From contig MWYX01000044.1 of NCBI GenBank assembly GCA_002050465.1, positions 1 to 32,757 on the forward strand: a stretch of 32,757 nucleotides of DNA, given 5' to 3'. Both the position numbers and the translations under genes were made by a program. This document shows, one piece after another, positions 5,346-26,146 of the stretch (positions are counted from its first letter, which is position 1; every line of letters begins with the position of its first letter). A model generated the notes under the pieces. The model was given only the letters and a program-made list of their open reading frames with translations. It was not told the DNA's origin and searched no databases. Source of the DNA: Chitinophagales bacterium 65-1 (GTDB lineage Bacteria > Bacteroidota > Bacteroidia > Chitinophagales > Chitinophagaceae).

Positions 5346-5876
5346 CTAACTGGTATCGAAGAGCTTTTTGTCCTCTTTTTTACGGAATATATTATCCAAA
5401 AATTTTTTAAACCCGCTTTTACGTTTTTTCTCTTTTTCTTCTTTCTGACCTGCCTTTTTATCTTTTAAGATCTTTAAAGAATCCTCTTTAATCCTGCCTT
5501 TTTTAGCATTTAATACCTTTAAAGAATCCTCAATAAACTTTTTATTAATTTCTTCCGAAGAACTATATAATACAGTACCATAAATTAACTGGTGATGATC
5601 ATTATCGAGGTATACCGGCAGGGATGGATTAGTAATCAAAACCTTTTTATTCAACAAAGAATTTTCCTCGCTGGTTAAAGTATTTTTTTGTTGCCATACA
5701 CCCTGCACGGAATCAAAAACGAAATAATATTTTTGTTCTATATCATAATAAATATTAGCCCGGGGATAATAATCATAAGTATTACCATGCTTTGTACCAG
5801 CCTGCGTTGATTTTTCCGCCTGCTGACAGGATAAAAAAAACAAAATGCATAAAAAAAATAATAGAGTGCTTTTCAT
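5346..5876 (-). CDS. Lysine-rich lipoprotein at the end of the kinase/SEDS-PBP operon
   Basis: I start the gene at the ATG at 5876 (176 residues) because MKSTLLFFLCILFFLSCQQ is then a clean lipoprotein signal with lipobox FLSC. The longer frame (start 5927) adds a second hydrophobic stretch and overlaps the kinase gene. The mature part contains ANIYYDIEQKYYFVFD, then a predicted globular region. The C-terminal third is strongly charged (Lys/Glu/Asp repeats such as LKILKDKKAGQKEEKEKKRK). The family is not recognised. It follows the kinase gene by about 34 bases and is probably the last operon gene. The YYD motif recurs in the small lipoprotein at 16130. Confidence 0.7.
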   Translation of the reverse strand: MKSTLLFFLCILFFLSCQQAEKSTQAGTKHGNTYDYYPRANIYYDIEQKYYFVFDSVQGVWQQKNTLTSEENSLLNKKVLITNPSLPVYLDNDHHQLIYGTVLYSSSEEINKKFIEDSLKVLNAKKGRIKEDSLKILKDKKAGQKEEKEKKRKSGFKKFLDNIFRKKEDKKLFDTS

Positions 5877-5910
5877 ATTAGTAAACTTATAAACGACCAG
5901 GAAAAATATC

Positions 5911-7812
5911 TTACTCAACTGTATCATTATTTTGGAATGATTGCCGGATGTTCAACTCATCAATCAACCTTTTTGCTAAAGTATCGCCCGCCATCATAGA
6001 TTCAGTAAGTAATTTTGTGCCCTTATAAACATCTCTTTTGTAACCGCAGTTATCATAATTATTAATTTCAAGTATATCCTGGTTATCTGCAAAAATGTAT
6101 AAAAAACCTAAGGTTCTTTTGGCAGGAATGTATCCTGAATTGGAAGCTTCCTCAATTAGGGTGTAGGCTTTAACACAATCAATGTTTGTATTTCTGCCTT
6201 GTAATCCAAGATTTCCATATTCGTACATGGCTTCAGGAACTTTTTGCTCAACGAGGTAACTGTAAATGTATAAAGCTTGTTTAGTTTTGCGTTCGTTCAT
6301 CAGCTTTCTTGCATCTGCAAGCTGGTTATTTACATCGTCGGCGGAAGATGAAATATTTAAGTCAGGTTCCCTGGTATTCCATTGATCGAGGGTCAACAAA
6401 TCTGATTTTCTTAGCCACCCTTTTGAAGTTTGCCCCCTGCTGTTGGTAAACTCTGTATAGATAAACCCGTTTTTTTCATTGAGCGAAGTAATGATATCAT
6501 TTGAAGGAACCATGTAGGCAGAACGCCTTGTTGCAACATCAGGCTGATCATAAAAATATGCCCTTGCGACTAACACTTTATATTGAGCTGTGGTTTTTTT
6601 GGCAGCCGCCGTTGGTATGGGGTCGGGGGATTTATTAATAGCCGGTTTATCTTTCTGATTATAATACCAATACATTCCTCCGGCCGTAAGGGCCATAAGC
6701 AAAAAGAAAAATAAAAAGGGAAAAGCACCCTTTTTTCGGCTTGGCATATATTCAGAACTGGTTTGTGAAATCCGTTGAGCATTATTATTTTCTCTTTGCT
6801 GAAATAATGATAATTGTTGCAGCAACGTATCTCTTTCCTCAATTAATTTATGTTTCTCCTGCTGTAATTGCAGCACTTCATCACTTATTGTAATAGAGGG
6901 GATAGCCTTTGTGTTTCTTAAAACAATATAATTATGTAATGCTTCGCCATCATTAAACCGTTGCTCAGGTTTTTTCTGCAGGCAGATATAAATTGTATTA
7001 ACCAGCCATTCGGGAACCTGCATTTCATTGGCTCTTCTTTCTTCGCTCCAGGTAGATGGCATTGCATTTTTTCGTAATGCAAGCACGTCCGGCGGTTCTT
7101 TTTCCATGTGGGCAAGCATCACATTATTTCTGGCTGTTTCACCTTTGTCAATTATAGGAAACGGAACCGTACCGCTCACCAGTTCAAACAATACTATTCC
7201 AAAACTATATACGTCTGTCTGCTTTAAAATATGGCCTTCATTTTGTTCGGGCGCCATAAATTCTATAGCACCGGCCTGGCGTAAACTGGTGCGTCTTTGC
7301 TCATCGGTCATAATTGCCATACCAAAATCCAGTAAAACATAATTCCCGGTATGAACGTTGAATTTAATATTATTGGCTTTAATATCCCCATGCTTTACAT
7401 CAGCCTTGTGGCAATGTAATAATGCATTGGATAACTGATCAGCAACTTTTATTACTTCTTTAATGCTGAAGATGGGGTCATTGGGACTTTGTAATAATTC
7501 TTCCAGGTCTGGTCCTTCAATATATTCCATTTCAATAAATGGAAGTGAACCGGTTTCGGTGATACCCGAACTTAAAATTTTTACAACATTTGGGTTAGGA
7601 TTTTTATTTACTCTTTTAAGCTTGTTTACTTCGTTTTCAAAATCAGTAAAATGTTTGTCATCGGGCGACTCACTGTAAATGGGTGTAGGCAACAGCTTAA
7701 CTGCTGTAATAATTTCACCGGTACGCCTGGCTTTATAAACTGATCCCTGGCCGCCTGTTCGTAATGCACCCAAATTCTCCAGCCCTTCAGTAATTGTAAA
7801 AACTTTAGCCAT
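5911..7812 (-). CDS. Transmembrane Ser/Thr protein kinase with SH3-like and Sel1-like extracytoplasmic region
   Basis: A 633-residue Hanks-type kinase. The cytoplasmic kinase domain (about 1-295) has the Gly-rich loop GGQGSVYKA, Lys39 in AVKLLP, HGDIKANNIKFN (catalytic D143, N148), LLDFGMA (162-164 DFG) and an APEQ motif (187-190). The residue before the catalytic Asp is Gly rather than Arg, so it is a non-RD type. A short coiled coil (about 312-340), one membrane segment (362-384), an SH3-like domain (about 411-475, ending KGWLRKSDLL) and Sel1-like helices (about 498-590) follow. The outside part replaces the PASTA repeats of PknB-type kinases. The start lies 8 bp after the FHA gene stop. 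It probably acts with the PP2C phosphatase of the same operon. Confidence 0.9.
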   Translation of the reverse strand: MAKVFTITEGLENLGALRTGGQGSVYKARRTGEIITAVKLLPTPIYSESPDDKHFTDFENEVNKLKRVNKNPNPNVVKILSSGITETGSLPFIEMEYIEGPDLEELLQSPNDPIFSIKEVIKVADQLSNALLHCHKADVKHGDIKANNIKFNVHTGNYVLLDFGMAIMTDEQRRTSLRQAGAIEFMAPEQNEGHILKQTDVYSFGIVLFELVSGTVPFPIIDKGETARNNVMLAHMEKEPPDVLALRKNAMPSTWSEERRANEMQVPEWLVNTIYICLQKKPEQRFNDGEALHNYIVLRNTKAIPSITISDEVLQLQQEKHKLIEERDTLLQQLSLFQQRENNNAQRISQTSSEYMPSRKKGAFPFLFFFLLMALTAGGMYWYYNQKDKPAINKSPDPIPTAAAKKTTAQYKVLVARAYFYDQPDVATRRSAYMVPSNDIITSLNEKNGFIYTEFTNSRGQTSKGWLRKSDLLTLDQWNTREPDLNISSSADDVNNQLADARKLMNERKTKQALYIYSYLVEQKVPEAMYEYGNLGLQGRNTNIDCVKAYTLIEEASNSGYIPAKRTLGFLYIFADNQDILEINNYDNCGYKRDVYKGTKLLTESMMAGDTLAKRLIDELNIRQSFQNNDTVE

Positions 7813-7820
7813 TACATTAA

Positions 7821-8600
7821 TTAACTTTCATTTAAATAACTAAATTCCAAAATGGCAGAATGCCCCAACATTATCTGATCACCTTCTTTTAATGCATATC
7901 CTATACGGGTGCTGTATAATTTTATCGGCGTGTCGGCTTCTAAAGTTCTTATCTTAATTTTATTTCGTGGAGGTATGCCATTTTCATCTGCGAATAAATA
8001 AAATTGTCCCGATTCGTTATCAAATTTTATATGGGCATGTTGCCTGCTTATAAATTTATTGCTCTCATGTGAACTATCACCGGGAAAAGCAATTGTATTT
8101 ACCCGGAAAAAGCCATCTTCACCCTGAACCTTTTTCTCACGTCCTATGGTAATTTTTCCATCCGAAGATCTTATGGTATAAACATCCTTTTCTGCTTCTC
8201 CATTCAATATCCTGATATATGCAGTAGCTGATTTTTGTAAAATATTTTTATGCGTTCTTATAAAAAGCCCGGCATGTATATCCGGAACAGGTATTACGTT
8301 TGAAGGAAGTTCATCAACAAAAGTTATATCCATATTCCATTCCTGTGGAAGTTCAATTGCGTAATCATCGCCAATACGTTGCACCTCATGTTTAAAACTA
8401 TCGGTGTTATCATAAAATACAGCAGATTCGTAGAGGTGTTTTTCTTCGTTTTTAGCAGAAATAAATAAATTTATGCCTTTAATATTTTTTCCTTCACCAC
8501 CTTCCAACTTACCTAACTGTTCCTTGATAAACAATAAAATGTTTTCACGAATCATTTTTACATCCGGTTTTTTATCAGTTTTATCTTTAAAAAAATTCAT
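7821..8600 (-). CDS. FHA-domain protein (FhaA-like arrangement)
   Basis: A 259-residue cytoplasmic protein. Residues 1-135 form an N-terminal region of unrecognised family. The FHA domain covers about 140-256, with the conserved GR (153-154 in KITIGREKK) and SRQHAHIKFD (185-194) that contact phosphothreonine in this fold, followed by FADENG and the final strand GDQIMLGHSAILEF. FHA domains bind phosphothreonine peptides, so the obvious partners are substrates of the neighbouring kinase. The gene lies 86 bp downstream of the SEDS-PBP fusion and 8 bp before the kinase. The domain order (unknown N-terminus, C-terminal FHA) recalls actinobacterial FhaA, but sequence homology of the N-terminus is not established. 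Confidence 0.88.
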   Translation of the reverse strand: MNFFKDKTDKKPDVKMIRENILLFIKEQLGKLEGGEGKNIKGINLFISAKNEEKHLYESAVFYDNTDSFKHEVQRIGDDYAIELPQEWNMDITFVDELPSNVIPVPDIHAGLFIRTHKNILQKSATAYIRILNGEAEKDVYTIRSSDGKITIGREKKVQGEDGFFRVNTIAFPGDSSHESNKFISRQHAHIKFDNESGQFYLFADENGIPPRNKIKIRTLEADTPIKLYSTRIGYALKEGDQIMLGHSAILEFSYLNES

Positions 8601-8686
8601 GCTTTTATAACAGCTTTAAGTATAGTCGTGTAAAAAATCAATTTTACTGGTTTCTAAGAATAATTCAGTGTTAAAATTACCTGAAT

Positions 8687-11600
8687 TCAATTGTTTATTA
8701 CAGAATCCTTTGCATTCTTATCCGGAAACCCTTTAATGTATCCATACTCCAATAATTTGGGTATAATTAAATCCCCGGACAGTGTAACTGCATCACCCGA
8801 TCCTTTGGTAGATTCAATGCGTACACAGGTTATAATATTACCCGGCCCGTTGATTTTTGGTGCATAAAAAACATACCATCCATCATTTATCCTTTGCCCT
8901 TTAAAAATTCTTTCAGGGGTACCTGTTTTACCGGCAACTGTTAAGTGGAGCTTATTTAATTTGCCTGCACTTTGCTTTTTCAAATATTCTGAAAGTTTAT
9001 CTGCATAATCCGGCTGTGTTATCGTAATTCCTTTTTCAATTTGGGCAGATGAATCACGGATCTTTAAAACAAACCGATTGGGAATCATTACTCCTCTATT
9101 GGCAATACCTGCCACCAATCTTGCAACTGAGGCAGGCGAAGCAATTAATTCTCCTTGTCCCCAGGCCATTCCGGAAATTCCTTTGGCCCTGGTTTTGCGA
9201 ATATCATTTTTATTATACCTTTTAATACTGGTAAATTCAGTTTTGCGCCATAACTTTCTCCATTCTTCTTCCTGTGTTTGATTGGTTACATTGTTTTGAA
9301 AAAAATAACCTCCAACGCCTTTTAAAAACATTCCTGACCTGATATAAACTGTTGCCATCTCTTCCTGCAATTTTTCTTCATTAGCAAGTTTGATAAAATA
9401 CGAATTGTTTGACTTAATTATAGCCCTCTCCATGTTTATATATCCGGGTTCATCAGGCTCAAGGCCTTTTACACGAATCAAATCGTGCCTCCGGATCAAA
9501 ATAATTTTACGTGCAGCAGAATCGCCCAGCTTATTGAAAGCAGCCAATGCTGTAGCAACTTTTGCTGTGGAACCCGGTTGTGTTGCATAAGTAAAGCCTA
9601 AATCATTTAAGGTGAGCCAGCCGGCATAACGATTTTGTTCGCGGCGGGTAAGTGTAAGTTTATCCCACTCCGTAACAGGAGGTAAAGGATAGGTTGCTGA
9701 TGCAATTACATCACCCGTAACATCTTCCATTATTACAATTGATACTCGTTTGTTTTTGATTGAATCATAAGTCTGCAATGATTGCTGTAAACGGGTTTGC
9801 AATGCAGCATCCACGGTAAGCGTTATATCACGGTTCTGTAGTTTAAATGAATCAACCTCCTTGCTGTTAATACCCGCAATAAGTAACGATGACAATGCAC
9901 TAAAATCTCTTTTACTAACTGACATCTCTTTAACTGATTGCGGTAAAAAACGATCTTCCCTAAAACGATGCGCTATAACATTGTAATTAACAGTTGGTGT
10001 TTTAAATCCTCTCAATTCCGCAATTAATTCATACTCTGCAAAATAACCATTGGTTGCACCCATGAACACACCTGTGTTGGCATCGCCTGTAAAAAAGAAC
10101 ATATGTTCTGCAAAAGGATAATACCGGTCTAATCTTTTTTTTGTAAGAGAAACTAATTTATCCTGTTGCAGTCCAGCCTTCATTAATAAATTGTTTTGAT
10201 CAAATACCATTTCCGGTTTGCTGGTAGCTAATAAATTCCCGTTACGATCGTATAAAGAACCAGCCTGTAAACGATTCATAAGAATAGCGATACGGGGATT
10301 ATAACTGAACATTCTTGCGCCGCTTCTATCAGCCACCAGGGCTGGCTGAACCACCCATTTTTTATTATTAAATAGATAACGGGAAACATTTACAGTTAGT
10401 AAAATGATGCCGATAAAAGCAGCTACTAATTCGGGTACCAGATTTTTATCATGCTGACTTGTAATAAAATTCATTTGCACTTTAGAACCTTTTACCGTAG
10501 AAGCAGAGAGCAGAAAGCCGGCAGCCAGTATATTAGAGATAAGTGAAGAGCCTCCATAACTAACAAAAGGAAGTGATACACCTGAGAGCGGCAGTGCACC
10601 CGTAGAGCCACCTGCAATTAGTATAAACTGAACAAAAGTGCCGATACCTATACCACTGCATAAATAAAAAAGAAATGGTCTGCCTGTTTGCCTGCCTATA
10701 AGTATAGAGCGATGCAAATAAACCATGAATAAAATAAACACACAAATAATTCCGGTCAATCCAAATTCTTCACCAATTGAAGGTAAGATCATATCAGTAT
10801 GAGCTTCGGGTATTGTTTTACCAAATCCCTCCCCTATCCCTTGCCCGCTTACTCCTCCACTTGACATTGCCCAAATACCGTTAGCTATTTGATCACCACC
10901 AAAAACTTCATTATCCCATGGATTTTGCCAGATGTCTTTTCTATCAACAAGGCGTTGCACAGGGCCTGGAATTAATTTGTTTAAAAATGGAATTTGATCT
11001 ACCAATAAAAAACCGGATATAACCACCAATGCCATTACTGAGGATTCGCTTAATTTTTTTCTCAAAAAAAACATCCAGGCAAATAATATGGTGATAGTAA
11101 CGGCAGTGGCGATCCAAAAATTTTTGAGCAGCCAGATCGCCAGTACATATAATACTACCGATGCAGCCATATTAATAAAATCTCCCCTGGAAAAAGAAAA
11201 CAGTATAATGAAAGTGAAACAAATAACTATGGCCGGCCCCAGATCACCCAATACCAGGAATAAAAGAATGGCAGAAGGAAGTGATACACCTGAGAGCGGC
11301 AGTGCACCCGTAGAGCCACCTGCAATTAGTATAAACTGAACAAAAGTGCCGATACCTATACCACTGCATAAATAAAAAAGAAATGGTCTGCCTGTTTGCC
11401 TGCCTATAAGTATAGAGCGATGCAAATAAACCATGAATAAAATAAACACACAAATAATTCCGGTCAATCCAAATTCTTCACCAATTGAAGGTAAGATCAT
11501 ATCAGTATGAGCTTCGGGTATTGTTTTACCAAATCCCTCCCCTATCCCTTGCCCGCTTACTCCTCCACTTGACATTGCCCAAATACCGTTAGCTATTTGA

Positions 11601-13480
11601 TCACCACCAAAAACTTCATTATCCCATGGATTTTGCCAGATGTCTTTTCTATCAACAAGGCGTTGCACAGGGCCTGGAATTAATTTGTTTAAAAATGGAA
11701 TTTGATCTACCAATAAAAAACCGGATATAACCACCAATGCCATTACTGAGGATTCGCTTAATTTTTTTCTCAAAAAAAACATCCAGGCAAATAATATGGC
11801 GATAGTAACGGCAGTGGCGATCCAAAAATTTTTGAGCAGCCAGATCGCCAGTACATATAATACTACCGATGCAGCCATATTAATAAAATCTCCCCTGGAA
11901 AAAGAAAACAGTATAATGAAAGTGAAACAAATAACTATGGCCGGCCCCAGATCACCCAATACCAGGAATAAAAGAATGGCAGCAATAATAGCACCCAAAG
12001 CGATATAAAAAAAATTCCAGCGTTTACGGAAAGTAGCATACCCTGAAATAAATTTTTCATTGGCTGCAAAAAAACCAGCCAAAAAAATTACCATTAAAAA
12101 CTTTACCACTTCGCTGGGTTGAAAACCAAACAGGTTAACTTTTACACCACTGCCTTCCGGGCCGGTGCCTAAAAAAATAGTTAGTAATAATAATGCCAGT
12201 GCAAAAGCGCCCCATTGCCATCCTTTAGCGCCTAACCGGTTTTTAAAAATAAACAACCTGTATAATCCTGAATCAGGTGTAAACCGCCGCAGGTTAAATA
12301 GGAGCATTACTATTAATCCTGCAAAACCCATAATAAAATACCATAAGGTACTTTTAGCTAAAAAGCGGTCACGCAAAGGATCCTGTAAACTTAAAAGGGC
12401 AAGCAGAGAAAGACCTGTGAGCAACATAACCACCGGTAAAATCAATTGATCTGCGGCAGAGAACTGAATGCTTAAGATAACGTGTAATATTATAAATCCC
12501 AATAAAAAACTTATAACAATTATCCAATACCACCTGGTAGCTTCCTGTGGTGTACGTACAATTAAAGCTCCTTCTTTTTTTAAGATATTAAAATCTTTGC
12601 CTGAAAACAATCTTAGTTTATGAGGTAATTGAATAAATGAAAAAGAAGCATCATTATTTAATTCCTGAACGCCTTTTGATTGCCCGAATTGATAACCAGG
12701 CTGTAATGGTATCACCTGGAAAGATTTACCGGAAGGCAACCCTTTAAAAACATAATTACCTTTTTCATCATTACGTGCATACGCAATAAACGATTGTAAT
12801 TGTTTTTGATCATTTAAATCTGTTGCATATACCTTATAAACAGATGGTGTGGATTCAACAATGCTATTTTCTACCTCTGAAAAATCTGAATGTTGTAAGC
12901 TGTCCTGAGGAATATTCATTTCCAAACGTACCAATACACCCGGTACAACTTTATTATCTCCAGAATATATGGTTCCCTTAATAATGTACTTACCTAAATT
13001 GATATTATTTACAGCAGGCATTGCAGGGGGATTATTTTTTTCCTGCAAATACCTGATGGAGTCCACATCAGAAAAGCCCAGTAACGAACGGGAAAGGCTC
13101 ACCCTTTTACGAAATGTTTCTCCTCCTTTCAGATACGCTTCTTCTGCATCAACATAGTATTTTGATTTATTTAATTCTCCAATATTCTCAATTTCATCAT
13201 CACTTTGTGCCAACCCTTTAGCAACTGAAGTTGTAATAACATCTATATCCCTGGCGTCTTCAAAATAATATCCTTTGGTCAATAAATTTTTAAACCCCGC
13301 GGCTGCATTAATATCATTTAAATTTACAATGGAGCCATCTTTAACCCGCGAGGGTACATTCTCAAATTCTTTTTGCAATATGGTGAATAAATAGAAAAAT
13401 AAACATGCCAGAATACCTGTTATGAAAAATAAAAAAGACCGTTCCAACATCCTTGAACGCTTCTGCATTTCTTCAGCCAT
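8687..13480 (-). CDS. SEDS (RodA/FtsW) polymerase fused to class B PBP transpeptidase, with internal 236-codon duplication
   Basis: A 1597-residue protein. One membrane helix (about 13-35) precedes an extracytoplasmic region with a prealbumin/carboxypeptidase-regulatory-like fold at about 165-270 (IIKGTIYSG...NYVFKGLPSG). A SEDS domain starts near 315, with motifs EAHTDMILPSIGEEFG and FVSYGGSS. The C-terminal penicillin-binding transpeptidase (about 1040-1590) has STAK (active Ser near 1304), SNN (about 1357) and KTGT (about 1519). SEDS proteins polymerise lipid II and class B PBPs cross-link it, so one chain could do both. Residues 501-736 are repeated as 737-972 with one difference (Ala/Thr), and FVSYGGSS follows only the second copy. 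Without the repeat the protein would have 1361 residues. The start is one base after the PP2C stop. Confidence 0.9.
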   Translation of the reverse strand: MAEEMQKRSRMLERSFLFFITGILACLFFYLFTILQKEFENVPSRVKDGSIVNLNDINAAAGFKNLLTKGYYFEDARDIDVITTSVAKGLAQSDDEIENIGELNKSKYYVDAEEAYLKGGETFRKRVSLSRSLLGFSDVDSIRYLQEKNNPPAMPAVNNINLGKYIIKGTIYSGDNKVVPGVLVRLEMNIPQDSLQHSDFSEVENSIVESTPSVYKVYATDLNDQKQLQSFIAYARNDEKGNYVFKGLPSGKSFQVIPLQPGYQFGQSKGVQELNNDASFSFIQLPHKLRLFSGKDFNILKKEGALIVRTPQEATRWYWIIVISFLLGFIILHVILSIQFSAADQLILPVVMLLTGLSLLALLSLQDPLRDRFLAKSTLWYFIMGFAGLIVMLLFNLRRFTPDSGLYRLFIFKNRLGAKGWQWGAFALALLLLTIFLGTGPEGSGVKVNLFGFQPSEVVKFLMVIFLAGFFAANEKFISGYATFRKRWNFFYIALGAIIAAILLFLVLGDLGPAIVICFTFIILFSFSRGDFINMAASVVLYVLAIWLLKNFWIATAVTIAILFAWMFFLRKKLSESSVMALVVISGFLLVDQIPFLNKLIPGPVQRLVDRKDIWQNPWDNEVFGGDQIANGIWAMSSGGVSGQGIGEGFGKTIPEAHTDMILPSIGEEFGLTGIICVFILFMVYLHRSILIGRQTGRPFLFYLCSGIGIGTFVQFILIAGGSTGALPLSGVSLPSAILLFLVLGDLGPAIVICFTFIILFSFSRGDFINMAASVVLYVLAIWLLKNFWIATAVTITILFAWMFFLRKKLSESSVMALVVISGFLLVDQIPFLNKLIPGPVQRLVDRKDIWQNPWDNEVFGGDQIANGIWAMSSGGVSGQGIGEGFGKTIPEAHTDMILPSIGEEFGLTGIICVFILFMVYLHRSILIGRQTGRPFLFYLCSGIGIGTFVQFILIAGGSTGALPLSGVSLPFVSYGGSSLISNILAAGFLLSASTVKGSKVQMNFITSQHDKNLVPELVAAFIGIILLTVNVSRYLFNNKKWVVQPALVADRSGARMFSYNPRIAILMNRLQAGSLYDRNGNLLATSKPEMVFDQNNLLMKAGLQQDKLVSLTKKRLDRYYPFAEHMFFFTGDANTGVFMGATNGYFAEYELIAELRGFKTPTVNYNVIAHRFREDRFLPQSVKEMSVSKRDFSALSSLLIAGINSKEVDSFKLQNRDITLTVDAALQTRLQQSLQTYDSIKNKRVSIVIMEDVTGDVIASATYPLPPVTEWDKLTLTRREQNRYAGWLTLNDLGFTYATQPGSTAKVATALAAFNKLGDSAARKIILIRRHDLIRVKGLEPDEPGYINMERAIIKSNNSYFIKLANEEKLQEEMATVYIRSGMFLKGVGGYFFQNNVTNQTQEEEWRKLWRKTEFTSIKRYNKNDIRKTRAKGISGMAWGQGELIASPASVARLVAGIANRGVMIPNRFVLKIRDSSAQIEKGITITQPDYADKLSEYLKKQSAGKLNKLHLTVAGKTGTPERIFKGQRINDGWYVFYAPKINGPGNIITCVRIESTKGSGDAVTLSGDLIIPKLLEYGYIKGFPDKNAKDSVINN
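10567..11982. repeat. Tandem direct repeat, 2 x 708 bp, inside the SEDS domain
   Basis: Positions 10567-11274 and 11275-11982 are head-to-tail copies. Reading both side by side I find one difference only, T11092 versus C11800 (Thr versus Ala in the protein). The unit is exactly 236 codons, so the frame is kept. The junction ATGGCAG|AAGGAAG shows no microhomology with the outer flanks. At protein level the junction joins GVSLP to SAILLFLVLG, whereas the outer end continues GVSLPFVSYGG. Either a very recent duplication or an assembly error explains this. Confidence 0.97.
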
Positions 13481-13481
13481 T

Positions 13482-14894
13482 CTATTGGTTTAAATTTTCT
13501 GATGAATCCTTATCTGCTACACCCATATCTTTTATACTACCTGAAAAGGAACCGTTTTTAAATTGATTTATAATTACAAGGTGGGCATTTGTAAATTGTA
13601 CATCTTTAAAAGAAAGTACATCCAAATTTTGTGCGTTAATAATAATGTCTGTATTCCGGATGTGAAGATTTTCAAATAATAAATACTTTACTGAGGGCGA
13701 AATAACAAGCGGAACTGCTTTTTTTGCCAACGTATCAGCTGTGATTATTGAGTTAATACCACCTGTAATATGGATGGAATCTTTATTAATGAAAACCGTA
13801 TCCTGTATAAATATGTTGCTGCCAAATAAAGAATCGGTTAACAATAATACAGTACCCAGTGAATTATTTATTGTATCCTGAAATGATTGATCATATACCT
13901 TATTTGATCCGGGTATTACATTTGCTGAATTTGCAATATTATTGGTTTTATCTTTTTTGAAATATTGCCATAAAAATGCTGCTGTAGAAAGTAATGCAAC
14001 CAAAGCAAGAAAAAAAATTAAACCTTGGTTTTTAGGCTTACTTTTTTCTGATGAAAAATCAATAGAATTATTTTCAGTTTCTGTTTCATTAACTTTTTGA
14101 GGGTTTTTTGTTCTGCCCCGTTTAGTGGCTAAATGATTTACAGATGTGAGATTATTTTGTACCAATACCACGGTGATATTGTCTTTTCCTCCGGTATTAT
14201 TAGCAGCATCAATCAATGCTTTCCCCTTTTCTTCCAGGCTTTTGTTTAAAGATAGAATGGCTGTAATGGCAGACTTATCTATCATATCTGTTAATCCATC
14301 ACTGCACAGCAGCAGCAGGTCGCCCGGTAAAAAAGGGGATTCGCCGGTTTCAAAATATTCCGTGGCATTTACTATCGGCGCCTCAAAACCCAATGCCTTA
14401 TTAATTTCATTTCTTTTAGGATGCGTCATTGCAGCTTCTTCATCCAGGCGGCCCGAATCTTCCAAAAGTCCTACGAATGAGTGATCCATGGTGATCTTCA
14501 CCAATGAATTATCACGAAATAAATAAAGCCTGGTATCACCTACATGGGCATAATAAAATTTATTGGCTTTGTTTTCAACCAAAACAACTGTTAGCACACA
14601 CGCCATTTTATTGTTACCAGTAACTTTTTGTTTTTCAATTAATATGTTTTGGTTAGCTGAAAGCAGCGCTTGCCGGAGCATTGTAATTGTATCCGGAATA
14701 GGATTTTTAAAATGATCTAATAAAGCATGCTTTGCTATATCTGCAGCCACTTCTCCTCCTTCGTACCCTCCCACCCCATCTATTACACAGGCTGCAATAA
14801 AACGGTTATTTAAAATAGTATTGGCTATGAAAGTATCTTCATTATTTTGCCTGTGCTTACCTATATCTGTAATGCCAAAATAATTTTCACCCAT
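13482..14894 (-). CDS. PP2C-family Ser/Thr phosphatase with membrane anchor and extracytoplasmic tail
   Basis: A 470-residue protein. The PP2C domain (about 1-245) shows all metal-binding motifs: HRQNNEDTF (D20), VIDGVGGYEGG (39-43), AHVGDTRLYLF (117-120), LLLCSDGLTDM (198-200) and GGKDNITVVLV (235-239). A charged linker leads to one membrane helix (about 290-311, LIFFLALVALLSTAAFLW). About 150 outside residues have a strand-rich, parallel-beta-helix-like look (VLLLTDSLF, ITGGINSII, LLFENLHIRN, LDVLSFKDVQF). This matches PstP-type phosphatases that reverse PknB-type kinases, with an unusual outside tail. It is one base upstream of the SEDS-PBP gene, implying translational coupling. Confidence 0.92.
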   Translation of the reverse strand: MGENYFGITDIGKHRQNNEDTFIANTILNNRFIAACVIDGVGGYEGGEVAADIAKHALLDHFKNPIPDTITMLRQALLSANQNILIEKQKVTGNNKMACVLTVVLVENKANKFYYAHVGDTRLYLFRDNSLVKITMDHSFVGLLEDSGRLDEEAAMTHPKRNEINKALGFEAPIVNATEYFETGESPFLPGDLLLLCSDGLTDMIDKSAITAILSLNKSLEEKGKALIDAANNTGGKDNITVVLVQNNLTSVNHLATKRGRTKNPQKVNETETENNSIDFSSEKSKPKNQGLIFFLALVALLSTAAFLWQYFKKDKTNNIANSANVIPGSNKVYDQSFQDTINNSLGTVLLLTDSLFGSNIFIQDTVFINKDSIHITGGINSIITADTLAKKAVPLVISPSVKYLLFENLHIRNTDIIINAQNLDVLSFKDVQFTNAHLVIINQFKNGSFSGSIKDMGVADKDSSENLNQ

Positions 14895-14985
14895 TTTTAT
14901 GATGTGTATTTTTTATATCCATAAAATGTGCAGCCAACAATGTTAAACATATAATCAATAGCGCAAAAGAAAGGAGGTGCGACAT
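14887..14985 (-). CDS. Possible 32-residue small membrane protein overlapping the PP2C start
   Basis: An ATG at 14985 opens a 32-codon frame. Its first 20 residues are almost entirely hydrophobic (MSHLLSFALLIICLTLLAAH) and its tail is polar. Its stop TGA lies within the first codons of the PP2C gene (shared ATGGGTGA), an arrangement typical of translational coupling. It would fit as a single-span membrane peptide of the operon and fills the only gap between the two flanking genes. It has no recognised family and short hydrophobic frames arise by chance, so confidence is modest. Confidence 0.35.
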   Translation of the reverse strand: MSHLLSFALLIICLTLLAAHFMDIKNTHHKNG

Positions 14986-14989
14986 AATG

Positions 14990-15937
14990 TTACGATTTAT
15001 AAACATTTATACCTACTATTCCATTCAGTATCAGCTTTGAATTAATGGGCAGTTCTGTCCATACCGGTTTATTAATATCACTTGCAATCAGGGGTTTTTC
15101 ATTCATGATAGTTTTTTCACCAAATGAGGTGATAAATAACACACCATTTTTTTTATCCATTTTAATACGTAGATGTGGTGAGTTAACCCACTCCGTGGGA
15201 ATTTTAAAAATATTGTTTGCTTCTCTTTTATCATCGCTTCCCGACACAATGATCTCATCATTCTTCATAATGTATTCAAGTTTTTTCCCAGCAAACGCTT
15301 TCTCCGGTAAAATTGCTTCAAACCTTGCCAACACAAATGATCCGGTTGCAGCCAGTTGTTTGTTATCATATGTAAGATCAGGTTGATACATTACTTCAAA
15401 ATAACCATCGCTGTAAAAAGTAAAATCTTTTAATATCTCTTCACTTATATCCGCGGTTTGTGCAATACCGGTTTGACGGGGAATAAAGGTTACCCGTAAA
15501 TTTTCATTTTTTTGATTTGTGCCGGGTAATAATTTGCCAATAAATCCTTTATCACCTTTGCCATAATCAGGATGTGAAACAAAGCGGAATACCCATTTAG
15601 AACTGGATGGCTCAACCGTTTTACCCTGCACCCGGTAATTTTTTAAAACCTCGTAAAAGTTTTTTACTGATTCCTGAACAATCAATCCAAAAATGCCTTT
15701 TTTGTAATCCATGAAAAGTTTGTAATCCTCCACATTAAATGCAATAATATATTCATGATAAAAAACTATCCTGTCAGAGAAGGATAATTCTTTAATTGAC
15801 TCATTAAATTTTTGAAGAATAAATTTATAAACAGAATCAGGAGTAATTGAGGGTGCTTTATTCGTCTCCGGTGTTTCTTTTTTCAAAAACCAATCATGCA
15901 GACCAATACGTTGCCAAAAAGATGACTTTGATTTCAT
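14990..15937 (-). CDS. FHA-like protein, divergent, first gene of the operon
   Basis: A 315-residue protein, predicted cytoplasmic. Residues 30-190 form an N-terminal region of unknown family (ends near SKWVFRFVSHPDYGKGDKGF). The C-terminal ~100 residues follow the FHA strand order: KLEYIMKNDEIIVSG, then SPHLRIKMDKKNGVLFITSF in the place of SRxH.xI, then KLILNGIVGINVY for the last strands. The GR pair is missing, so phosphothreonine binding may be lost. Overall architecture parallels the FHA protein at 7821-8600. It is upstream of the PP2C gene (about 95 bp, with a possible small ORF between) and divergent from the lipoprotein at 16130. The FHA assignment is by eye from weak motifs. Confidence 0.65.
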   Translation of the reverse strand: MKSKSSFWQRIGLHDWFLKKETPETNKAPSITPDSVYKFILQKFNESIKELSFSDRIVFYHEYIIAFNVEDYKLFMDYKKGIFGLIVQESVKNFYEVLKNYRVQGKTVEPSSSKWVFRFVSHPDYGKGDKGFIGKLLPGTNQKNENLRVTFIPRQTGIAQTADISEEILKDFTFYSDGYFEVMYQPDLTYDNKQLAATGSFVLARFEAILPEKAFAGKKLEYIMKNDEIIVSGSDDKREANNIFKIPTEWVNSPHLRIKMDKKNGVLFITSFGEKTIMNEKPLIASDINKPVWTELPINSKLILNGIVGINVYKS

Positions 15938-19513: not shown

Positions 19514-21472
19514 TTATTTCATTAGAACAACAGTTCCTTTTTTATTTACTTCACCACAGACTGTTATTGCTTTAATAACATACACATATGCACCAACATT
19601 CTGTAATTTACCTTTGTATATTCCGTCCCAGCATTTTGCAGGATCTTTCGTATAAAAAATTCTTTCTCCAAAACGATTATAAATACTAAAATCCAGGTTG
19701 GTTACTGTTCCCCAATATTTTAATCCAAAGCAATCATTTATACCATCATTATTAGGCGTAAAGGCGGTAGGCATATTGTAATTTCCCGTCTTATTATCAA
19801 TTCCAACATTCACAGTAACTGTATCAGTGTTTTTACATCCATTATTATCAAACCCTTTTACAATGTATAATGTGGTCTTTCGGGGTTTTGCTATAGGATT
19901 TGAAACAGTGCTATCATTCAGATCATTGCCTTGTTGCCAGAGATAACTTTTGCCACCAACAGCATTTAACTGTGTAAATGTTTTTGAACAGTCAATGTCA
20001 TTAGTTTTTGAGGCTTTAATAGCAGGCAGTGGTAAAACAGTAACTTTTGTAGATAACACCATCGAATCATTACACGTACTGTCTTTAATAGTAACGGAAT
20101 ATCTAATATTAGAGGTGGGTGTTGCAACTGGATTGCTGATATTCGGATTGCTCAAAAATGCAGCAGGCTGCCATAGATAAGAAGTACCTCCGGAAGCATT
20201 TAACTGGACAATACTTTTTTCACACACCGAATTATCGGGGGAAATAGTAAAAGTGTTTTGTGGCTTTGCTGTTGCTGAACCCGCCATGCTTTTACATCCA
20301 TTTACCGTTTGCGTTACTGTATAAATTCCGCCTGTTGTTACATTTATTGAAGGAGTTGTTGCATTGGTACTCCATAATAAAGCTCCTGTTGCTGTTGTGG
20401 AAAGGGTTGATGTTCCATTGCAGTTATCAACTACGGTAACAATGGGTTGGGGCGGCTGCTCTAATATAGTTACGTTAACAGGATCTACAGTTGTACAAAT
20501 ACCGGTTCCCGTTCCTTTTATATAATAGGTGCCACTTATATTTATTGCAGCCGGATTTGGTGTAGTGAGGGCATTTAACCCCATTGAATCTGTAAAGTAA
20601 GTAAAACTCAAATTAACGTCGCTGCCATTAGTGATTGCCGGTGCCTTCAAATTAATTGTTCCCGGTGAACATATTGGGGCTGGATTATTTGTTTTGCTGG
20701 TTACTATTTTACAACATCCGCCATATTCCATTACTTCGGTCTGGTTTATTGCGCGGTCATAAATTCTTATCTCATCCATCACGCCATTAAACCAGTAGGG
20801 GTATAGAGGGTTAAAAGTAGCTTTGCCTAAAAACAAATCATCAGGACTTGTCATACTCAGGCCTGGAATGTCCCTAGATATTATAAGTTTGCAATCCACA
20901 TAAAGTTTAGCTGTATTACCATCATAAGTATAAACTACACTATACCATCTATTTTGTATAATCCAAGGGTAATTATAATCTTGTAGACCTCCCTGGTTTG
21001 CCCTCCCTCCCTGTCCTTGGCCGTAAAAAAATTGATGAATGGTATCGCTACCAGAAGTCTCACAGCTAGAATTACCGGGATAAAGATTTTCATCGATTCT
21101 AAGTTTGTATGCCGGCGGATCTTCATCTGTATTCCCTTTCCATAGAATTGAAGTTCCACGGCACGGTCCAAGATAAAAGCCTTGTACTTTAACCCACGCA
21201 CAAATTGAAATTTGCGAAGATGGATTTAGAGAAGGTGAATTTGGGATTCTAATATAATTGCTTATCCCATTAAAAGAGTATGCACTATTTGCATTTCCTA
21301 ATCTATCAACTGTTAACGAGGCATTATTAAAAACAGGATGATTTCCATTACCACTGGCGTCTTTTGCATCGCCATTAAATGGATAATATGCAACCAGCCC
21401 TTTCGCTAAATCAATTTGAGAAAAACAAGCGTTACTTAATAGTAATAAAATTAGGAGCGGATATGTTTTCAT
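19514..21472 (-). CDS. LamG-domain surface protein with T9SS type B (gliding-motility-associated) C-terminus
   Basis: A 652-residue secreted protein. Signal peptide at 1-18. A LamG/concanavalin-like domain covers about 22-250: LVAYYPFNGDAKDASGNGNH, SICAWVKVQG and a closing segment DEIRIYDRAINQTEVMEY. Ig-like or PKD-like repeats follow, each with CxxS/VQLNASGGTSYLWQP-type motifs (about 255-565). The last ~85 residues start MPTAFTPNNDGINDCF and include DFSIYNRFGERIFY and CWDGIYKGKLQNVGAYVY, the type B T9SS sorting domain. LamG domains often bind glycans, so an adhesin or surface-binding role is likely but unproven. It lies 47 bp downstream of purB on the same strand. Confidence 0.9.
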   Translation of the reverse strand: MKTYPLLILLLLSNACFSQIDLAKGLVAYYPFNGDAKDASGNGNHPVFNNASLTVDRLGNANSAYSFNGISNYIRIPNSPSLNPSSQISICAWVKVQGFYLGPCRGTSILWKGNTDEDPPAYKLRIDENLYPGNSSCETSGSDTIHQFFYGQGQGGRANQGGLQDYNYPWIIQNRWYSVVYTYDGNTAKLYVDCKLIISRDIPGLSMTSPDDLFLGKATFNPLYPYWFNGVMDEIRIYDRAINQTEVMEYGGCCKIVTSKTNNPAPICSPGTINLKAPAITNGSDVNLSFTYFTDSMGLNALTTPNPAAINISGTYYIKGTGTGICTTVDPVNVTILEQPPQPIVTVVDNCNGTSTLSTTATGALLWSTNATTPSINVTTGGIYTVTQTVNGCKSMAGSATAKPQNTFTISPDNSVCEKSIVQLNASGGTSYLWQPAAFLSNPNISNPVATPTSNIRYSVTIKDSTCNDSMVLSTKVTVLPLPAIKASKTNDIDCSKTFTQLNAVGGKSYLWQQGNDLNDSTVSNPIAKPRKTTLYIVKGFDNNGCKNTDTVTVNVGIDNKTGNYNMPTAFTPNNDGINDCFGLKYWGTVTNLDFSIYNRFGERIFYTKDPAKCWDGIYKGKLQNVGAYVYVIKAITVCGEVNKKGTVVLMK

Positions 21473-22954: not shown

Positions 22955-23716
22955 TTGAATAATAAAATAAGAGTTGGCGCAGTAAATTATCTCAATACCA
23001 AACCTCTTATTTACGGTTTTGAAATTGGCGGGATGAAAGATGAAGTTGATCTTTTTCTCGAATATCCATCCAAAATTGCTGTAATGCTTAAGGAAGATAA
23101 AATTGATATTGGATTGGTGCCGGTTGTAATTATCCCGGAATTAAAAGAACATTATCTTATCTCTGACTATTGTATCGGCTGTGATGGGGAAGTAGGCAGT
23201 GTATGTTTATTCAGTGAAGTCCCTTTAGTAAAAATTGAAAGGATTCTGCTGGATTATCAAAGCAGAACCTCAGTTGACCTTCTTAAAATATTAATAAAGC
23301 AATACTGGAAAATTGATCCCGAACTTATTACCACATCAGAAGATTACAGGAAAAATATCTCAGGTACTACAGCAGGCTTGATAATTGGTGACAGGGCATT
23401 GGAACAAAGAAGAATTTCTAATTATAAATATGACCTGGGATATGAATGGAAAAAATTTACAGGGCTGCCATTTGTTTTTGCAACATGGATAAGTAATAAG
23501 CAGTTAGATTACACATTTATTGAATCTTTTAATAAAACGAATTTAAGCGGCCTGAAAAATATAGACAAAGTGGTTTCTGAAAACCCCTATGCGTTATTTG
23601 ATCTGAAATCTTATTATACTTCTTACATAAATTACTATCTGAATGAGAAAGCAAAAAAAGGATTGCAGGATTTTCTTGATTTGTTGATCGCTGACCAAAA
23701 TCAGTATTTAAAATGA
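22955..23716 (+). CDS. mqnA: Chorismate dehydratase MqnA (futalosine menaquinone pathway)
   Basis: A 253-residue periplasmic-binding-protein-like enzyme that converts chorismate to 3-enolpyruvylbenzoate, the first step of the futalosine route to menaquinone. The N-terminus KIRVGAVNYLNTKPLIYG is typical, followed by DIGLVPVVIIPEL, AGLIIGDRALEQR and GLPFVFATWIS. No in-frame ATG is available near the start, so TTG at 22955 is used. Other mqn genes are not in the window. The 3' half (from about 23310) has a diverged second copy at 28253-28642, suggesting recombination at this locus. rfbF starts 40 bp downstream. Confidence 0.92.
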   Translation: MNNKIRVGAVNYLNTKPLIYGFEIGGMKDEVDLFLEYPSKIAVMLKEDKIDIGLVPVVIIPELKEHYLISDYCIGCDGEVGSVCLFSEVPLVKIERILLDYQSRTSVDLLKILIKQYWKIDPELITTSEDYRKNISGTTAGLIIGDRALEQRRISNYKYDLGYEWKKFTGLPFVFATWISNKQLDYTFIESFNKTNLSGLKNIDKVVSENPYALFDLKSYYTSYINYYLNEKAKKGLQDFLDLLIADQNQYLK

Positions 23717-23756
23717 ATATAATATTTTTGAAGTCTGTAGCTCTTAAATAATTTTT

Positions 23757-24533
23757 ATGAAAGTTGTAATTTTTGCCGGTGGTTTAGGAACACGAATAAG
23801 TGAAGAAACAGATGCCCGCCCTAAACCTATGGTGGAAATTGGGGGAAAGCCAATGATATGGCATATAATGAAAATATACAGTCATTTCGGCTATAATGAT
23901 TTTATTATTTGCCTCGGTTATAAAGGCTATATCATTAAGGAATATTTTATGAATTATTTTTTGCATAATTCTGATATTACCATTGAATTAAAAAACAATA
24001 AAGTACAAATACATGATTCAAGTTCAGAAGCTTTTACTGTTACATTGGTTGAAACCGGCCTGGAAACAAAAACAGCGGGAAGATTAAAACAGGTGGAAAA
24101 GTATATTGGTAATGAAGATTTTATGCTAACATATGGCGACGGTGTATGCGATGTAAATTTAAAAGAACTCGTAGAATTTCATAAAGCACATAATAAAATT
24201 GCAACCGTTACTTCCATTCAATTAGATTCAAGATTTGGAGGTATGGAAGTTAATGATAACGGAGAAGTTACAGCTTTTAGAGAAAAAGCACACGATGAAT
24301 GCAAATGGATTAATGGAGGTTTTTTTGTTTTGAAGCCTGATGTATTTAAATATCTTGAAGGTGATATGACAAATATGATGTGGGAAGACAGGCCACTTGA
24401 GAGGCTTACTACAGATAATGAATTGGTTGCTTACAGGCACAAAGGCTTCTGGAAATGCATGGATGCCTTGCGGGATAAGATAGAACTGGAAGAATTATGG
24501 AAAAATAATGAAGCTAAATGGAAGGTGTGGTAA
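23757..24533 (+). CDS. rfbF: Glucose-1-phosphate cytidylyltransferase
   Basis: A 258-residue nucleotidyltransferase making CDP-glucose from glucose-1-phosphate and CTP, the entry step to CDP-linked deoxysugars. The N-terminal motif FAGGLGTRISEETDARPKPM, with IGGKPMIWHIMKIYSHFG, is characteristic of RfbF/DdhA. LTYGDGVCDVN is the metal-binding region and WINGGFFVLKPDVF follows. Length is normal. The 3' end overlaps the next gene (rfbG) by 16 bases, indicating coupling. Confidence 0.95.
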   Translation: MKVVIFAGGLGTRISEETDARPKPMVEIGGKPMIWHIMKIYSHFGYNDFIICLGYKGYIIKEYFMNYFLHNSDITIELKNNKVQIHDSSSEAFTVTLVETGLETKTAGRLKQVEKYIGNEDFMLTYGDGVCDVNLKELVEFHKAHNKIATVTSIQLDSRFGGMEVNDNGEVTAFREKAHDECKWINGGFFVLKPDVFKYLEGDMTNMMWEDRPLERLTTDNELVAYRHKGFWKCMDALRDKIELEELWKNNEAKWKVW

Positions 24534-25603: not shown

Positions 25604-26144
25604 AGAAACGAAACTTAGAGGAAGCCATACAGTAGATATACTGGCTGCTGCAGACGAACGGGGATGGTTTGCAAGAACTTTTGATAAGGAGGAGTTTAAT
25701 AAAATCGGTTTTAATTCCCAATGGGTACAGATCAATCATTCTTTTACAAATAAAGCAGGAACAATACGGGGAATGCATTATCAGTTATCACCTTTTGCTG
25801 AAGTAAAACTTGTAAGATGCGTTGCAGGAGTTGTATTTGATGTAATCATTGATCTTAGAAATGAATCTGATACTTTTTTACAGTGGTTTGGCACTGAACT
25901 TTCTGCAGAGAATAAAAAAATGATATTCATTCCGGAAGGATTTGCTCATGGGTTTCAAACCTTATCGGATAATTGCGAATTAATTTATCATCATTCGCAG
26001 TTTTATGAGCCTTCTTCTGAACGGGGAATAAAATATGATGATCCGATGATAAATATTGTGTGGATGAATAAGATAACAAATATCTCAAAAAGAGATAGTG
26101 AACATAGGTATATCGATGAAAAATTTGAGGGGATAAATATATAA
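25593..26144 (+). CDS. NDP-4-keto-6-deoxyhexose 3,5-epimerase-type protein (RmlC-like)
   Basis: I start this gene at ATG 25593 (183 residues), which gives the usual RmlC N-terminus MKFEETKLRGSHTVDILAAA; the longer frame from 25524 overlaps rfbG deeply. The cupin motifs are visible: GWFARTFDKEEF, INHSFTNKAGTIRGMHYQL (catalytic His region), VFDVIIDLRNESDTFLQW and IPEGFAHGFQTLSDNCELIY. In this context the substrate is probably CDP-4-keto-6-deoxyglucose rather than the dTDP sugar, with epimerisation at C3 and/or C5; the cluster suggests this but the sequence does not prove it. Confidence 0.88.
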   Translation: MKFEETKLRGSHTVDILAAADERGWFARTFDKEEFNKIGFNSQWVQINHSFTNKAGTIRGMHYQLSPFAEVKLVRCVAGVVFDVIIDLRNESDTFLQWFGTELSAENKKMIFIPEGFAHGFQTLSDNCELIYHHSQFYEPSSERGIKYDDPMINIVWMNKITNISKRDSEHRYIDEKFEGINI

Positions 26145-26146
26145 TA

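Follow-up and report, generated by a model that had tools for sequence, protein, structure and literature searches.

The operon reported here is best compared with the actinobacterial fhaA-fhaB-pstP-rodA-pbpA-pknA-pknB locus, the conservation of which is described in PMC6554272 and for which Actinomyces oris (L182) and Tsukamurella (L183) were read as reference loci. The Bacteroidota operon resembles it in carrying a SEDS protein of the same side of the SEDS tree, a membrane PP2C phosphatase, an FHA protein of FhaA type (assigned by Pfam in one distant member from Bacteroidota) and the gene order FHA - PP2C - SEDS - PBP - kinase, except that in the actinobacterial order a second FHA gene lies in between. 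It differs in that SEDS and PBP are fused behind a periplasmic N-domain, the operon kinases lack PASTA, FHA2 is of another kind than FhaB and is placed after the PBP, and the fusion is accessory, with separate RodA and FtsW alongside it in Bacteroidota hosts.

The canonical RodA-PBP2 and FtsW-PBP3 pairs resemble the fusion in combining a SEDS polymerase with a class B PBP and in their catalytic motifs, whereas their SEDS belong to other clades and their genes are separate; in the four mrdA-rodA loci that we read, no kinase, phosphatase or FHA neighbour was annotated. Engineered RodA-PBP2 fusions are active, as PMC6207328 and PMC10449877 state. A clostridial trio in Monoglobus pectinilyticus (L215) has, like the operon, an FHA gene immediately 5' of SEDS and PBP, and its SEDS lies with those of the fusions on one side of the tree, yet its SEDS and PBP are separate and neither a kinase nor a phosphatase is annotated in the 8-kb stretch. 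SEDS and PBP in one ORF are also found on Rhodococcus plasmids (L180, L220), with no kinase, phosphatase or FHA neighbour annotated in a gene table that is incomplete. As the SEDS of these plasmid-borne proteins, unlike those of the Bacteroidota fusions, lie among canonical SEDS, they derive from a separate fusion event.

In the window, by which we mean the whole 32,757-nucleotide stretch analysed, six ORFs at positions 5346-15937 form an operon on the minus strand, encoding FHA1, a membrane PP2C, a SEDS-PBP fusion, FHA2, a transmembrane Ser/Thr kinase and a lipoprotein. The original prediction of six same-strand genes was borne out, every ORF lying on the minus strand where it had been placed. 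The spacings between neighbouring ORFs, starting from the lipoprotein, are -17, 8, 86, 1 and 95 bp, so that the predicted gaps of 1 to about 95 bases hold for four of them and fail at the lipoprotein and kinase, which overlap by 17 bp. The proposed parallel between this kinase-phosphatase-FHA-wall-synthase operon and the actinobacterial locus stands as well, since the gene order was found in relatives, clearly contradicting the refuting outcome of an order conserved in no relative.

Conservation of the operon is well above chance. The five core genes are complete in 20/20 host-family loci, which are those taken out of 60 hits, and in 74 of the 80 named loci, among which PP2C, SEDS-PBP and FHA2 are each present in 80/80, FHA1 in 78/80 and the kinase in 75/80 (one kinase in 33 of the 75 kinase-bearing loci, two in 36 and three in 6). 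A locus from another class (L172) retains the order FHA1-PP2C-SEDSPBP-FHA2, one locus type carries a kinase-FHA fusion, and in one genome of that other class (L174) PP2C is fused to SEDS-PBP in a single protein. In the distant loci L169, L171 and L173 a kinase or PP2C ORF was not found within the 20 kb taken; the genomes of distant kinase-less loci (G550 and G457) have 17-18 kinases elsewhere. Within the host family the fusion occurs in 60/394 genomes and 15/101 genera, and phylum-wide in 15/395 genomes; one copy resides on a 136-kb Spirosoma plasmid with the annotated order FHA-PP2C-STPK-STPK-SEDS(-PBP)-FHA. A PP2C_2 match is found in 55/60 host-family genomes with the fusion as against 97/334 without it, in raw counts that ignore kinship, and in four of the 14 fusion genomes examined (G388, G026, G064 and G632) all detected Pkinase and PP2C_2 matches lie inside the operon.

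The SEDS-PBP gene (8687..13480, minus strand) encodes 1597 aa as assembled and matches FTSW_RODA_SPOVE (2e-70) and Transpeptidase (1.3e-20) of Pfam in one ORF, with the layout TM, periplasmic N-domain, SEDS polymerase and class B PBP transpeptidase; SEDS and PBP are fused in the window and in 20/20 relatives taken. The catalytic motifs used, HTD of SEDS and SxxK, SxN and K[TS]G of the PBP, are present in 20/20 rows of an alignment that includes the window. The HTD aspartate of the fusion presumably corresponds to D262 of RodA. A D262A change blocks RodA activity, according to PMC6207328. The window gene also holds an in-frame 708-bp tandem repeat that the original prediction did not mention, with a 5' copy at 11275..11982 and a 3' copy at 10567..11274 (both minus strand) that are 707/708 identical, the single mismatch being 11092/11800; minus the duplication the protein is ~1361 aa. 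The duplication falls inside the SEDS membrane domain, and an internal 30-aa repeat is absent from the 101 other SEDS-PBP ORFs examined, which measure 1311-1443 aa except in L077, where the gene is split in two ORFs. It is either an assembly error or a fresh mutation, and because of it the window's copy of SEDS-PBP may be non-functional.

In an unrooted SEDS tree of 61 rows, a branch supported at 100/99 sets 21 fusions, five ActRodA rows and one Monoglobus row apart from the rest, and the fusions lie outside the BacRodA and BacFtsW clades. Four of the ActRodA rows come from fhaA-pstP operons; the RodA of the fifth, Embleya (L219), adjoins a kinase, and FhaA, PP2C and PBP matches were not found beside it. 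With AU groups chosen after the tree was seen, grouping of the fusion SEDS with Bacteroidota RodA (p 0.008) and with Bacteroidota FtsW (p 0.0008) was rejected; for the fused class B PBP, AU rejects none of the Act, BacPBP2 and BacPBP3 groupings. The Bacteroidota fusions form one clade with a long stem, spanning two classes and standing outside the actinobacterial clade. SEDS of the RodA and FtsW clades are also present in 9/9 fusion genomes examined for them, and in the window genome, a 79.5% complete assembly of 68 contigs, one further SEDS only was found, of the FtsW clade. A machine of independent build, as originally supposed, is not borne out, as the fusion SEDS groups with actinobacterial RodA and the BacRodA and BacFtsW groupings are rejected. 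The tree suggests a third SEDS lineage beside FtsW and RodA, in which, root permitting, the actinobacterial 'RodA' would be included, and both the gene order and the presence of an FhaA-type FHA1 in a distant member are consistent with descent in common with the actinobacterial operon.

The Hanks-type Ser/Thr kinase (5911..7812, minus strand; 633 aa) has one TM at ~362-380 and matches Pkinase of Pfam (6.3e-33), with an HGDIKANN catalytic loop, DFG and APE present. Its outside domain is without PASTA, as had been predicted: zero PASTA matches were obtained in 11 operon kinases (that of the window and ten relatives'), and the window kinase scores 140.8 bits against the PknB_PASTA_kin model, the cut-off of which is 450. 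The SH3-like/Sel1-like labels given to this outside part gained no support, the window kinase being without any such Pfam match; a TPR_16 match (0.0018) occurs in one relative's kinase. Kinases of different locus types sit in separate clades. The PP2C phosphatase (13482..14894, minus strand; 470 aa; PP2C_2 of Pfam at 4.5e-11) consists of a cytoplasmic catalytic domain, one TM at ~291-309 and a variable outside tail, and five motifs of PP2C proteins are present in the window and in 78/78 relatives longer than 350 aa. The operon PP2Cs from the two classes cluster in a single clade at 100/100 (19 rows). A phosphatase of cyanobacterial type (4e-38) outranks PstP (3e-27) in a sequence search of the PDB. 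Behind the kinase domain a hydrophobic segment is present in 123/123 kinases, and behind the PP2C domain in 78/80. Kinase domains have a median identity of 67% and the window's outside domain is alignable in 15/123 kinases, and the PP2C core is 60% identical as against 23% for the tail; in both proteins the catalytic cores are thus conserved and the putative sensors variable.

FHA2 (7821..8600, minus strand; 259 aa) combines an alpha/beta N-domain, for which profile comparison gave no link to FhaA_N, with a canonical FHA domain (Pfam FHA at 4.9e-5 in the window, matched in 21/21 rows; model pLDDT 88), and its site has G, R, S, R and H in 21/21 rows and N in 19/21. Both the phospho-binding residues of FHA2 and the catalytic ones of the operon are intact. 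FHA1 (14990..15937, minus strand) is an FhaA-like soluble protein of 315 aa, modelled with a helix-strand-helix-helix-strand N-domain followed by a degenerate FHA domain that Pfam did not match in the window; residues ~200-315 are predicted to adopt an FHA fold (model pLDDT 79; MDC1 FHA at Z 14.2 over 101 residues, 1.9 A). In window-type rows the canonical R and S of the site are lost, with H in 21/21 and N in 20/21, the phospho-binding residues of FHA1 being degenerate. A distant FHA1 homologue (L169) has FhaA_N and FHA above cut-offs (9.7e-6, 26.5 bits, cut-off 25), and those of L172 and L174 score under the FhaA_N cut-off. In the window FHA1, FhaA_N was not matched; its N-domain has weak profile similarity to FhaA_N, and the whole-protein profile of window-type FHA1 matches the L169 group. 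Actinobacterial FhaA, taken as a control, scores 9e-38 and 2e-24 against FhaA_N.

Based on these data we propose that the operon is probably a Bacteroidota version of the actinobacterial one with a fused synthase; it would encode an accessory, third-type SEDS-PBP peptidoglycan synthase together with a phospho-signalling unit dedicated to it. A single polypeptide would unite the lipid II polymerase (SEDS) and the transpeptidase (class B PBP), with an extra periplasmic N-domain in front, fixing the polymerase to transpeptidase ratio at 1:1. One to three transmembrane Ser/Thr kinases would sense the envelope via outside domains that vary, and would phosphorylate their own threonines as well as those of operon partners. 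With its intact phosphothreonine site, FHA2 would dock on these phosphosites and, together with the FhaA-like scaffold FHA1, pass the signal on to SEDS-PBP at its cytoplasmic face, and the membrane PP2C would reset it. The operon would be a homologue of actinobacterial fhaA-pstP-rodA-pbpA-pkn with RodA and PbpA fused, acting beside ordinary RodA and FtsW. Gene content and order, their conservation, the intact catalytic and FHA2 residues and the SEDS kinship are what the data show directly; we infer phosphorylation control of the synthase, as we do synthase activity, phosphorylation targets, docking and direction of control.

It is highly unlikely that the actinobacterial set was reached by convergence, with Bacteroidota adding a kinase, a phosphatase and FHA proteins to a RodA/PBP2 or FtsW/PBP3 pair of their own. 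The scanned kinases without PASTA, their separate clades in different locus types, the unrejected PBP groupings and an FHA2 N-domain unrelated to FhaA_N would fit such an assembly, whereas the 100/99 placement of SEDS with actinobacterial RodA, the two AU rejections, the FHA-PP2C-SEDS-PBP order (the same as the actinobacterial one bar the second FHA gene) and FhaA_N in the FHA1 of L169 speak against it. Linkage conserved over two classes, a PP2C clade co-inherited with the fusion, the PP2C-SEDS-PBP and kinase-FHA fusions and the four genomes with detected Pkinase and PP2C_2 matches only in the operon also make it unlikely that the kinase and the phosphatase serve general signalling, have their targets elsewhere and merely adjoin an unregulated SEDS-PBP, as the varying kinase number and sensors and the three distant loci without nearby kinase and PP2C might imply.

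The patchy distribution and the Spirosoma plasmid copy could instead reflect horizontal spread of the module, from Actinobacteria or among Bacteroidota via plasmids, as a mobile wall-remodelling cassette serving, for example, in envelope stress. Patchiness is equally well explained by gene losses, and since the fusions form one long-stemmed clade over two classes, outside the actinobacterial clade, any transfer from Actinobacteria would be old; we regard such spread as distinctly unlikely. A small but appreciable probability attaches to decay of the locus in the window's organism, in which the duplication, peculiar to the window and within the SEDS membrane domain, would break the SEDS fold; against this, the frame is open over 1597 codons, the remaining operon ORFs are intact and an assembly error in so incomplete and fragmented a genome would look alike.

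Extending the preferred reading of an accessory, phospho-controlled synthase, we put forward tentatively, as a serious possibility, an ancient third SEDS lineage, 'FHA-SEDS', common to Actinobacteria, Bacteroidota and at least one genus of the Clostridium class, which would have been passed down together with FhaA-type readers and PP2C and would be gated through phosphorylation on Ser/Thr. Its Bacteroidota form would be a single-chain, stoichiometrically locked polymerase-transpeptidase, a conditional synthase beside RodA/FtsW and in some genomes the sole client of all Hanks kinases and PP2C_2 proteins detected. If the preferred reading holds, phosphorylation-based control of wall synthesis, with kinase, PP2C, FHA reader and SEDS-PBP, extends beyond the PASTA-kinase world of Gram-positives to culturable Gram-negative bacteria, the named hosts being environmental, in which the synthase is one protein. 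With four genomes in which no Hanks kinase or PP2C_2 was detected outside the operon, this would provide a compact and self-contained system for studying how a phosphosignal acts as a switch on a SEDS-PBP synthase. Structural work would gain a family of naturally fused SEDS-PBP proteins.

The putative lipoprotein (5346..5927, minus strand; 193 aa), which in the window has no match in Pfam or NCBIfam, is an optional member of the operon. No other flanking family occurs in more than 3/20 relatives' loci, and a homologue of the lipoprotein is present in 7/20.

The window is an entire contig of 32,757 bp from a source genome of 1.96 Mb that is 79.5% complete. The operon lies on its minus strand at 5346-15937, and every ORF of the original prediction was found there. 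FHA1 (14990-15937) is followed by a PP2C phosphatase recognized by Pfam (13482-14894), by a SEDS-PBP fusion in which Pfam places a SEDS polymerase and a transpeptidase in a single ORF (8687-13480), by FHA2 with a Pfam FHA domain (7821-8600), by a kinase recognized by Pfam (5911-7812) and by a lipoprotein ORF (5346-5927). The spacings between successive ORFs are 95, 1, 86, 8 and -17 bp; thus the predicted gaps of 1 to about 95 bases hold for the first four, whereas the kinase and lipoprotein ORFs overlap. The FHA-like character assigned to FHA1 is borne out by its predicted model (pLDDT 79), in which an FHA domain is seen at residues ~200-315 (Z 14.2); Pfam FHA gives no match in the window protein and a weak one in 8 of 21 relatives.

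Using the PBP part as query at an E value of 1e-20, the fusion was found in 60 of 394 family genomes, representing 15 of 101 genera, and in 15 of 395 phylum genomes. All 20 regions taken from the family matches contain the five core families (FHA1, PP2C, SEDS-PBP, FHA2 and kinase), the lipoprotein is present in seven, and any other flanking family in at most three. Three layouts were observed: that of the window, FHA1-PP2C-SEDSPBP-FHA2-kinase(s); a second, FHA1-PP2C-kinase-SEDSPBP-FHA2; and a third, kinase-FHA1-PP2C-SEDSPBP-FHA2-kinase, one locus of which (L070) carries a kinase-FHA fusion. A further set comprised the best 80 of 486 relatives, Bacteroidota only, and is biased to close relatives because only these 80 were inspected; it includes Mucilaginibacter, Pedobacter, Flavisolibacter, Segetibacter, Ferruginibacter, Cnuella and others, and shares at least four genomes with the 20 family loci. 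PP2C, SEDS-PBP and FHA2 occur in 80 of 80, FHA1 in 78 and a kinase in 75, and 74 loci have the full five; every locus missing a part is less than 16 kb long, as against up to 22 kb for the set. Conservation of the locus in relatives, a check proposed with the original prediction, is upheld: the five core genes occur together in 20/20 family loci and 74/80 best relatives, on which ground an assembly artefact or a chance linkage is rejected for the operon. In Spirosoma oryzicola the whole operon resides on a 136-kb circular plasmid (L179), in the order FHA-PP2C-STPK-STPK-SEDS-PBP-FHA.

The original prediction further held it plausible that the locus was built independently of its actinobacterial parallel, and this part is not supported by the SEDS tree. 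The tree has 61 rows, of which 21 are fusions (11 of the 20 family loci and 10 others; L171, a near copy of L169 and L173, was omitted), and the window sequence is absent from it as from the PBP, PP2C and kinase trees. One branch separates the 21 fusions, five actinobacterial RodAs and one clostridial SEDS from 11 RodA and 11 FtsW proteins of Bacteroidota, with support of 100/100 on all columns. As the first tree kept extra N-terminal columns common to the fusions and actinobacterial RodA, it was rerun with only those columns that are occupied in 85% of the rows, yielding the same grouping at 100/99. Trees forcing the fusions with Bacteroidota RodA (p 0.008) or FtsW (p 0.0008) were rejected, the groups having been chosen after the tree was seen and long branches being present. 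Since the fusions group with actinobacterial RodA in this tree, independent build of the locus is rejected as unlikely. The transpeptidase tree, from which ActPbpA_Embleya and BacPBP2_L232 were left out for lack of a usable PBP domain, did not place the fusion PBP, kinship to PbpA included. In the PP2C and kinase trees L267 was dropped as a repeat of L071. The operon PP2Cs from both classes form one clade (100/100, 19 rows) and show no resolved link to PstP, and the kinase tree, likewise a check proposed at the outset, distributes the operon kinases over several clades: one group (94/90) holds most of them together with the kinase of the distant locus L174, and the upstream kinases of layout 3 fall outside it. 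For the SEDS gene at a minimum, and probably for FHA1, the best reading of the locus is homology to the actinobacterial operon, with the kinase side re-equipped.

The likeness of FHA1 to FhaA is seen in loci from another class of Bacteroidota, where FHA1 looks FhaA-type. In one of these, L169, it matches FhaA_N at 9.7e-6 (26.5 bits, cut-off 25) and FHA at 9.7e-12; in L172 and L174 FhaA_N stays below the cut-off (0.0011 and 0.0052), with FHA at ~1e-9 and 1e-8, respectively. Actinobacterial FhaA, used as control, matches FhaA_N at 9e-38 and 2e-24, and window FHA1 has no Pfam match to it. A profile of the window-type FHA1 aligns with the distant-group FHA1 along its length (probability 97.8, E 1.1e-12). 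When N-domain profiles were compared, three FHA1/FhaA pairs topped the 28 pairs, controls included; the window-group pairs are weak (P 0.0012 and 0.0042 versus 0.039 for the best controls) and weaker still once realigned (P 0.02 and 0.012, with controls left as first aligned). Among these distant members the order is FHA1-PP2C-SEDSPBP-FHA2 in L172 and FHA1-SEDSPBP-FHA2 in L169, L171 and L173, with no PP2C or kinase ORF within the 20 kb taken. Their FHA2 counterparts at L172:10935-12302 and L174:11979-13250 begin with a Swt1-like HEPN domain (Pfam 1.5e-25 and 7.4e-22), which is not matched in window FHA2.

The actinobacterial locus is conserved, FhaA and FhaB are phosphothreonine readers, and knockdown of the pstP operon alters the wall, according to PMC6554272, in whose text no word begins with 'bacteroid'. 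In Actinomyces oris the order is DUF3662+FHA, FHA, PP2C, SEDS, PBP, kinase, pknB, and Tsukamurella has the same order, its PP2C being present as an ORF that is not annotated. FhaA, PP2C and SEDS are present in the Nonomuraea and Nocardia regions; the Embleya region has SEDS and a kinase and no match to FhaA, PP2C or PBP. The five actinobacterial RodAs of the SEDS tree come from these five genera. In the clostridial Monoglobus pectinilyticus FHA, SEDS and PBP genes are consecutive (L215:2278-5263), and its SEDS falls with actinobacterial RodA, support within the group being weak. Rhodococcus plasmids carry SEDS-PBP fusions of ~941-946 aa (L180:7704-10544 and L220:4507-7332) with no annotated kinase, phosphatase or FHA neighbour; these are fusion events separate from those of Bacteroidota. 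Single-ORF SEDS-PBP fusions are said to exist in PMC10449877, and engineered ones are described as active in PMC6207328; a word search of PMC8406291 and PMC10920833 found no mention of such fusions. Among the matches listed from the literature, which leaves out most subscription journals and preprints, none describes the operon in Bacteroidota.

Conserved catalytic cores are combined with variable sensors. The SEDS HTD and the PBP SxxK, SxN and K[TS]G motifs are kept in 20 of 20 aligned SEDS-PBPs (the window included, L063 omitted), and all five PP2C motifs are present in 78/78 relatives longer than 350 aa. The 123 kinases have the HGD[IVL]K-type catalytic loop in 122 cases and DFG and an activation loop of 22 residues in all. 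At the FHA site of FHA2 the residues G, R, S, R and H are found in 21/21 rows and N in 19/21, and in window-type FHA1 the canonical R and S are gone. Median identity to the window is 67% for the kinase domain, 60% for the PP2C core, 68% for the FHA1 N-domain and 23% for the PP2C outside tail; the outside domain of the window kinase is alignable in only 15 of 123 kinases. As predicted, no PASTA domain was matched in any of the 11 operon kinases scanned. CarboxypepD_reg matches the N-terminal periplasmic stretch of the fusion in L169 (7.8e-11) and L172 (1.7e-11), lies below the cut-off in L170 (0.0014), L175 (1.1e-4) and the window (0.084), and at 0.01 gives no match in L174, L066 or L070. When FHA1, FHA2 and the PBP were compared with PDB sequences, no decisive relative emerged (best for PBP, 4ovd at 1e-7), and no relative of the FHA2 N-domain was found in fold searches, whose results were filled by FHA domains.

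Circumstantial evidence for joint action of the operon parts comes from co-occurrence and from the kinase-FHA and PP2C-SEDS-PBP gene fusions. PP2C_2 was matched in 55 of 60 family genomes with the fusion versus 97 of 334 without it (Fisher 1e-20, kinship ignored; both searches covered 394 family genomes, taken as identical sets). The five lacking a match are G174, G276, G315, G341 and G367; in two of them, G174 and G341, a contig end truncates the SEDS-PBP match. Half of the fusion genomes (30/60) have exactly one PP2C_2 match, in the operon or elsewhere, that of G364 being on another contig. Counting only these families, four genomes (G388, G026, G064 and G632) among the 14 with the fusion that were examined have no Pkinase or PP2C_2 match outside the operon; the distant genomes G550, G457, G454 and G597 have 8-18 kinase matches, mostly outside it. 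Among 27 genomes examined, 13 lack the fusion, and of these 8 have a Pkinase and 4 a PP2C_2 match. As all nine fusion genomes searched for SEDS also carry RodA-clade and FtsW-clade proteins, the SEDS-PBP synthase is an extra one; the incomplete genome of the window yielded, in addition to the fusion, one SEDS of the FtsW clade and no other. We infer every signalling step from family knowledge: the kinases would sense the envelope and phosphorylate threonines, their own or those of partners, FHA2 would read the phosphothreonines, FHA1 would act as a scaffold, PP2C would reset the signal, and the output would be the single-chain SEDS-PBP. In G597 a PP2C-SEDS-PBP triple fusion of 1384 aa (L174:7762-11913) has no CarboxypepD_reg match; as it is seen in one of six carriers among 195 genomes of the distant class, it could be a local deletion.

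The window SEDS-PBP gene contains a tandem in-frame 708-bp repeat (10567-11274 and 11275-11982; 707/708 identical, one mismatch), missed in the earlier reading of the sequence. Owing to this repeat the ORF measures 1597 aa, and the protein without it would be ~1361 aa. No such repeat was found in 101 other SEDS-PBP ORFs (81 from the 80 loci and 20 from family loci, at least four genomes being common to both), the unsplit ones among which measure 1311-1443 aa, and the duplication is either a misassembly or a recent mutation. The split gene is that of a Segetibacter MAG, where SEDS-PBP occupies two ORFs (L077:8190-12479). Elsewhere in the window, 19514-21472 on the minus strand encodes a Laminin_G_3 protein whose C terminus bears a CHU_C type IX secretion signal, and at 22955-32492 on the plus strand a menaquinone-biosynthesis-like gene is followed by genes for nucleotidyl transferase, sugar dehydratase/epimerase, C-methyltransferase and glycosyl transferase, which may form a surface sugar cluster.
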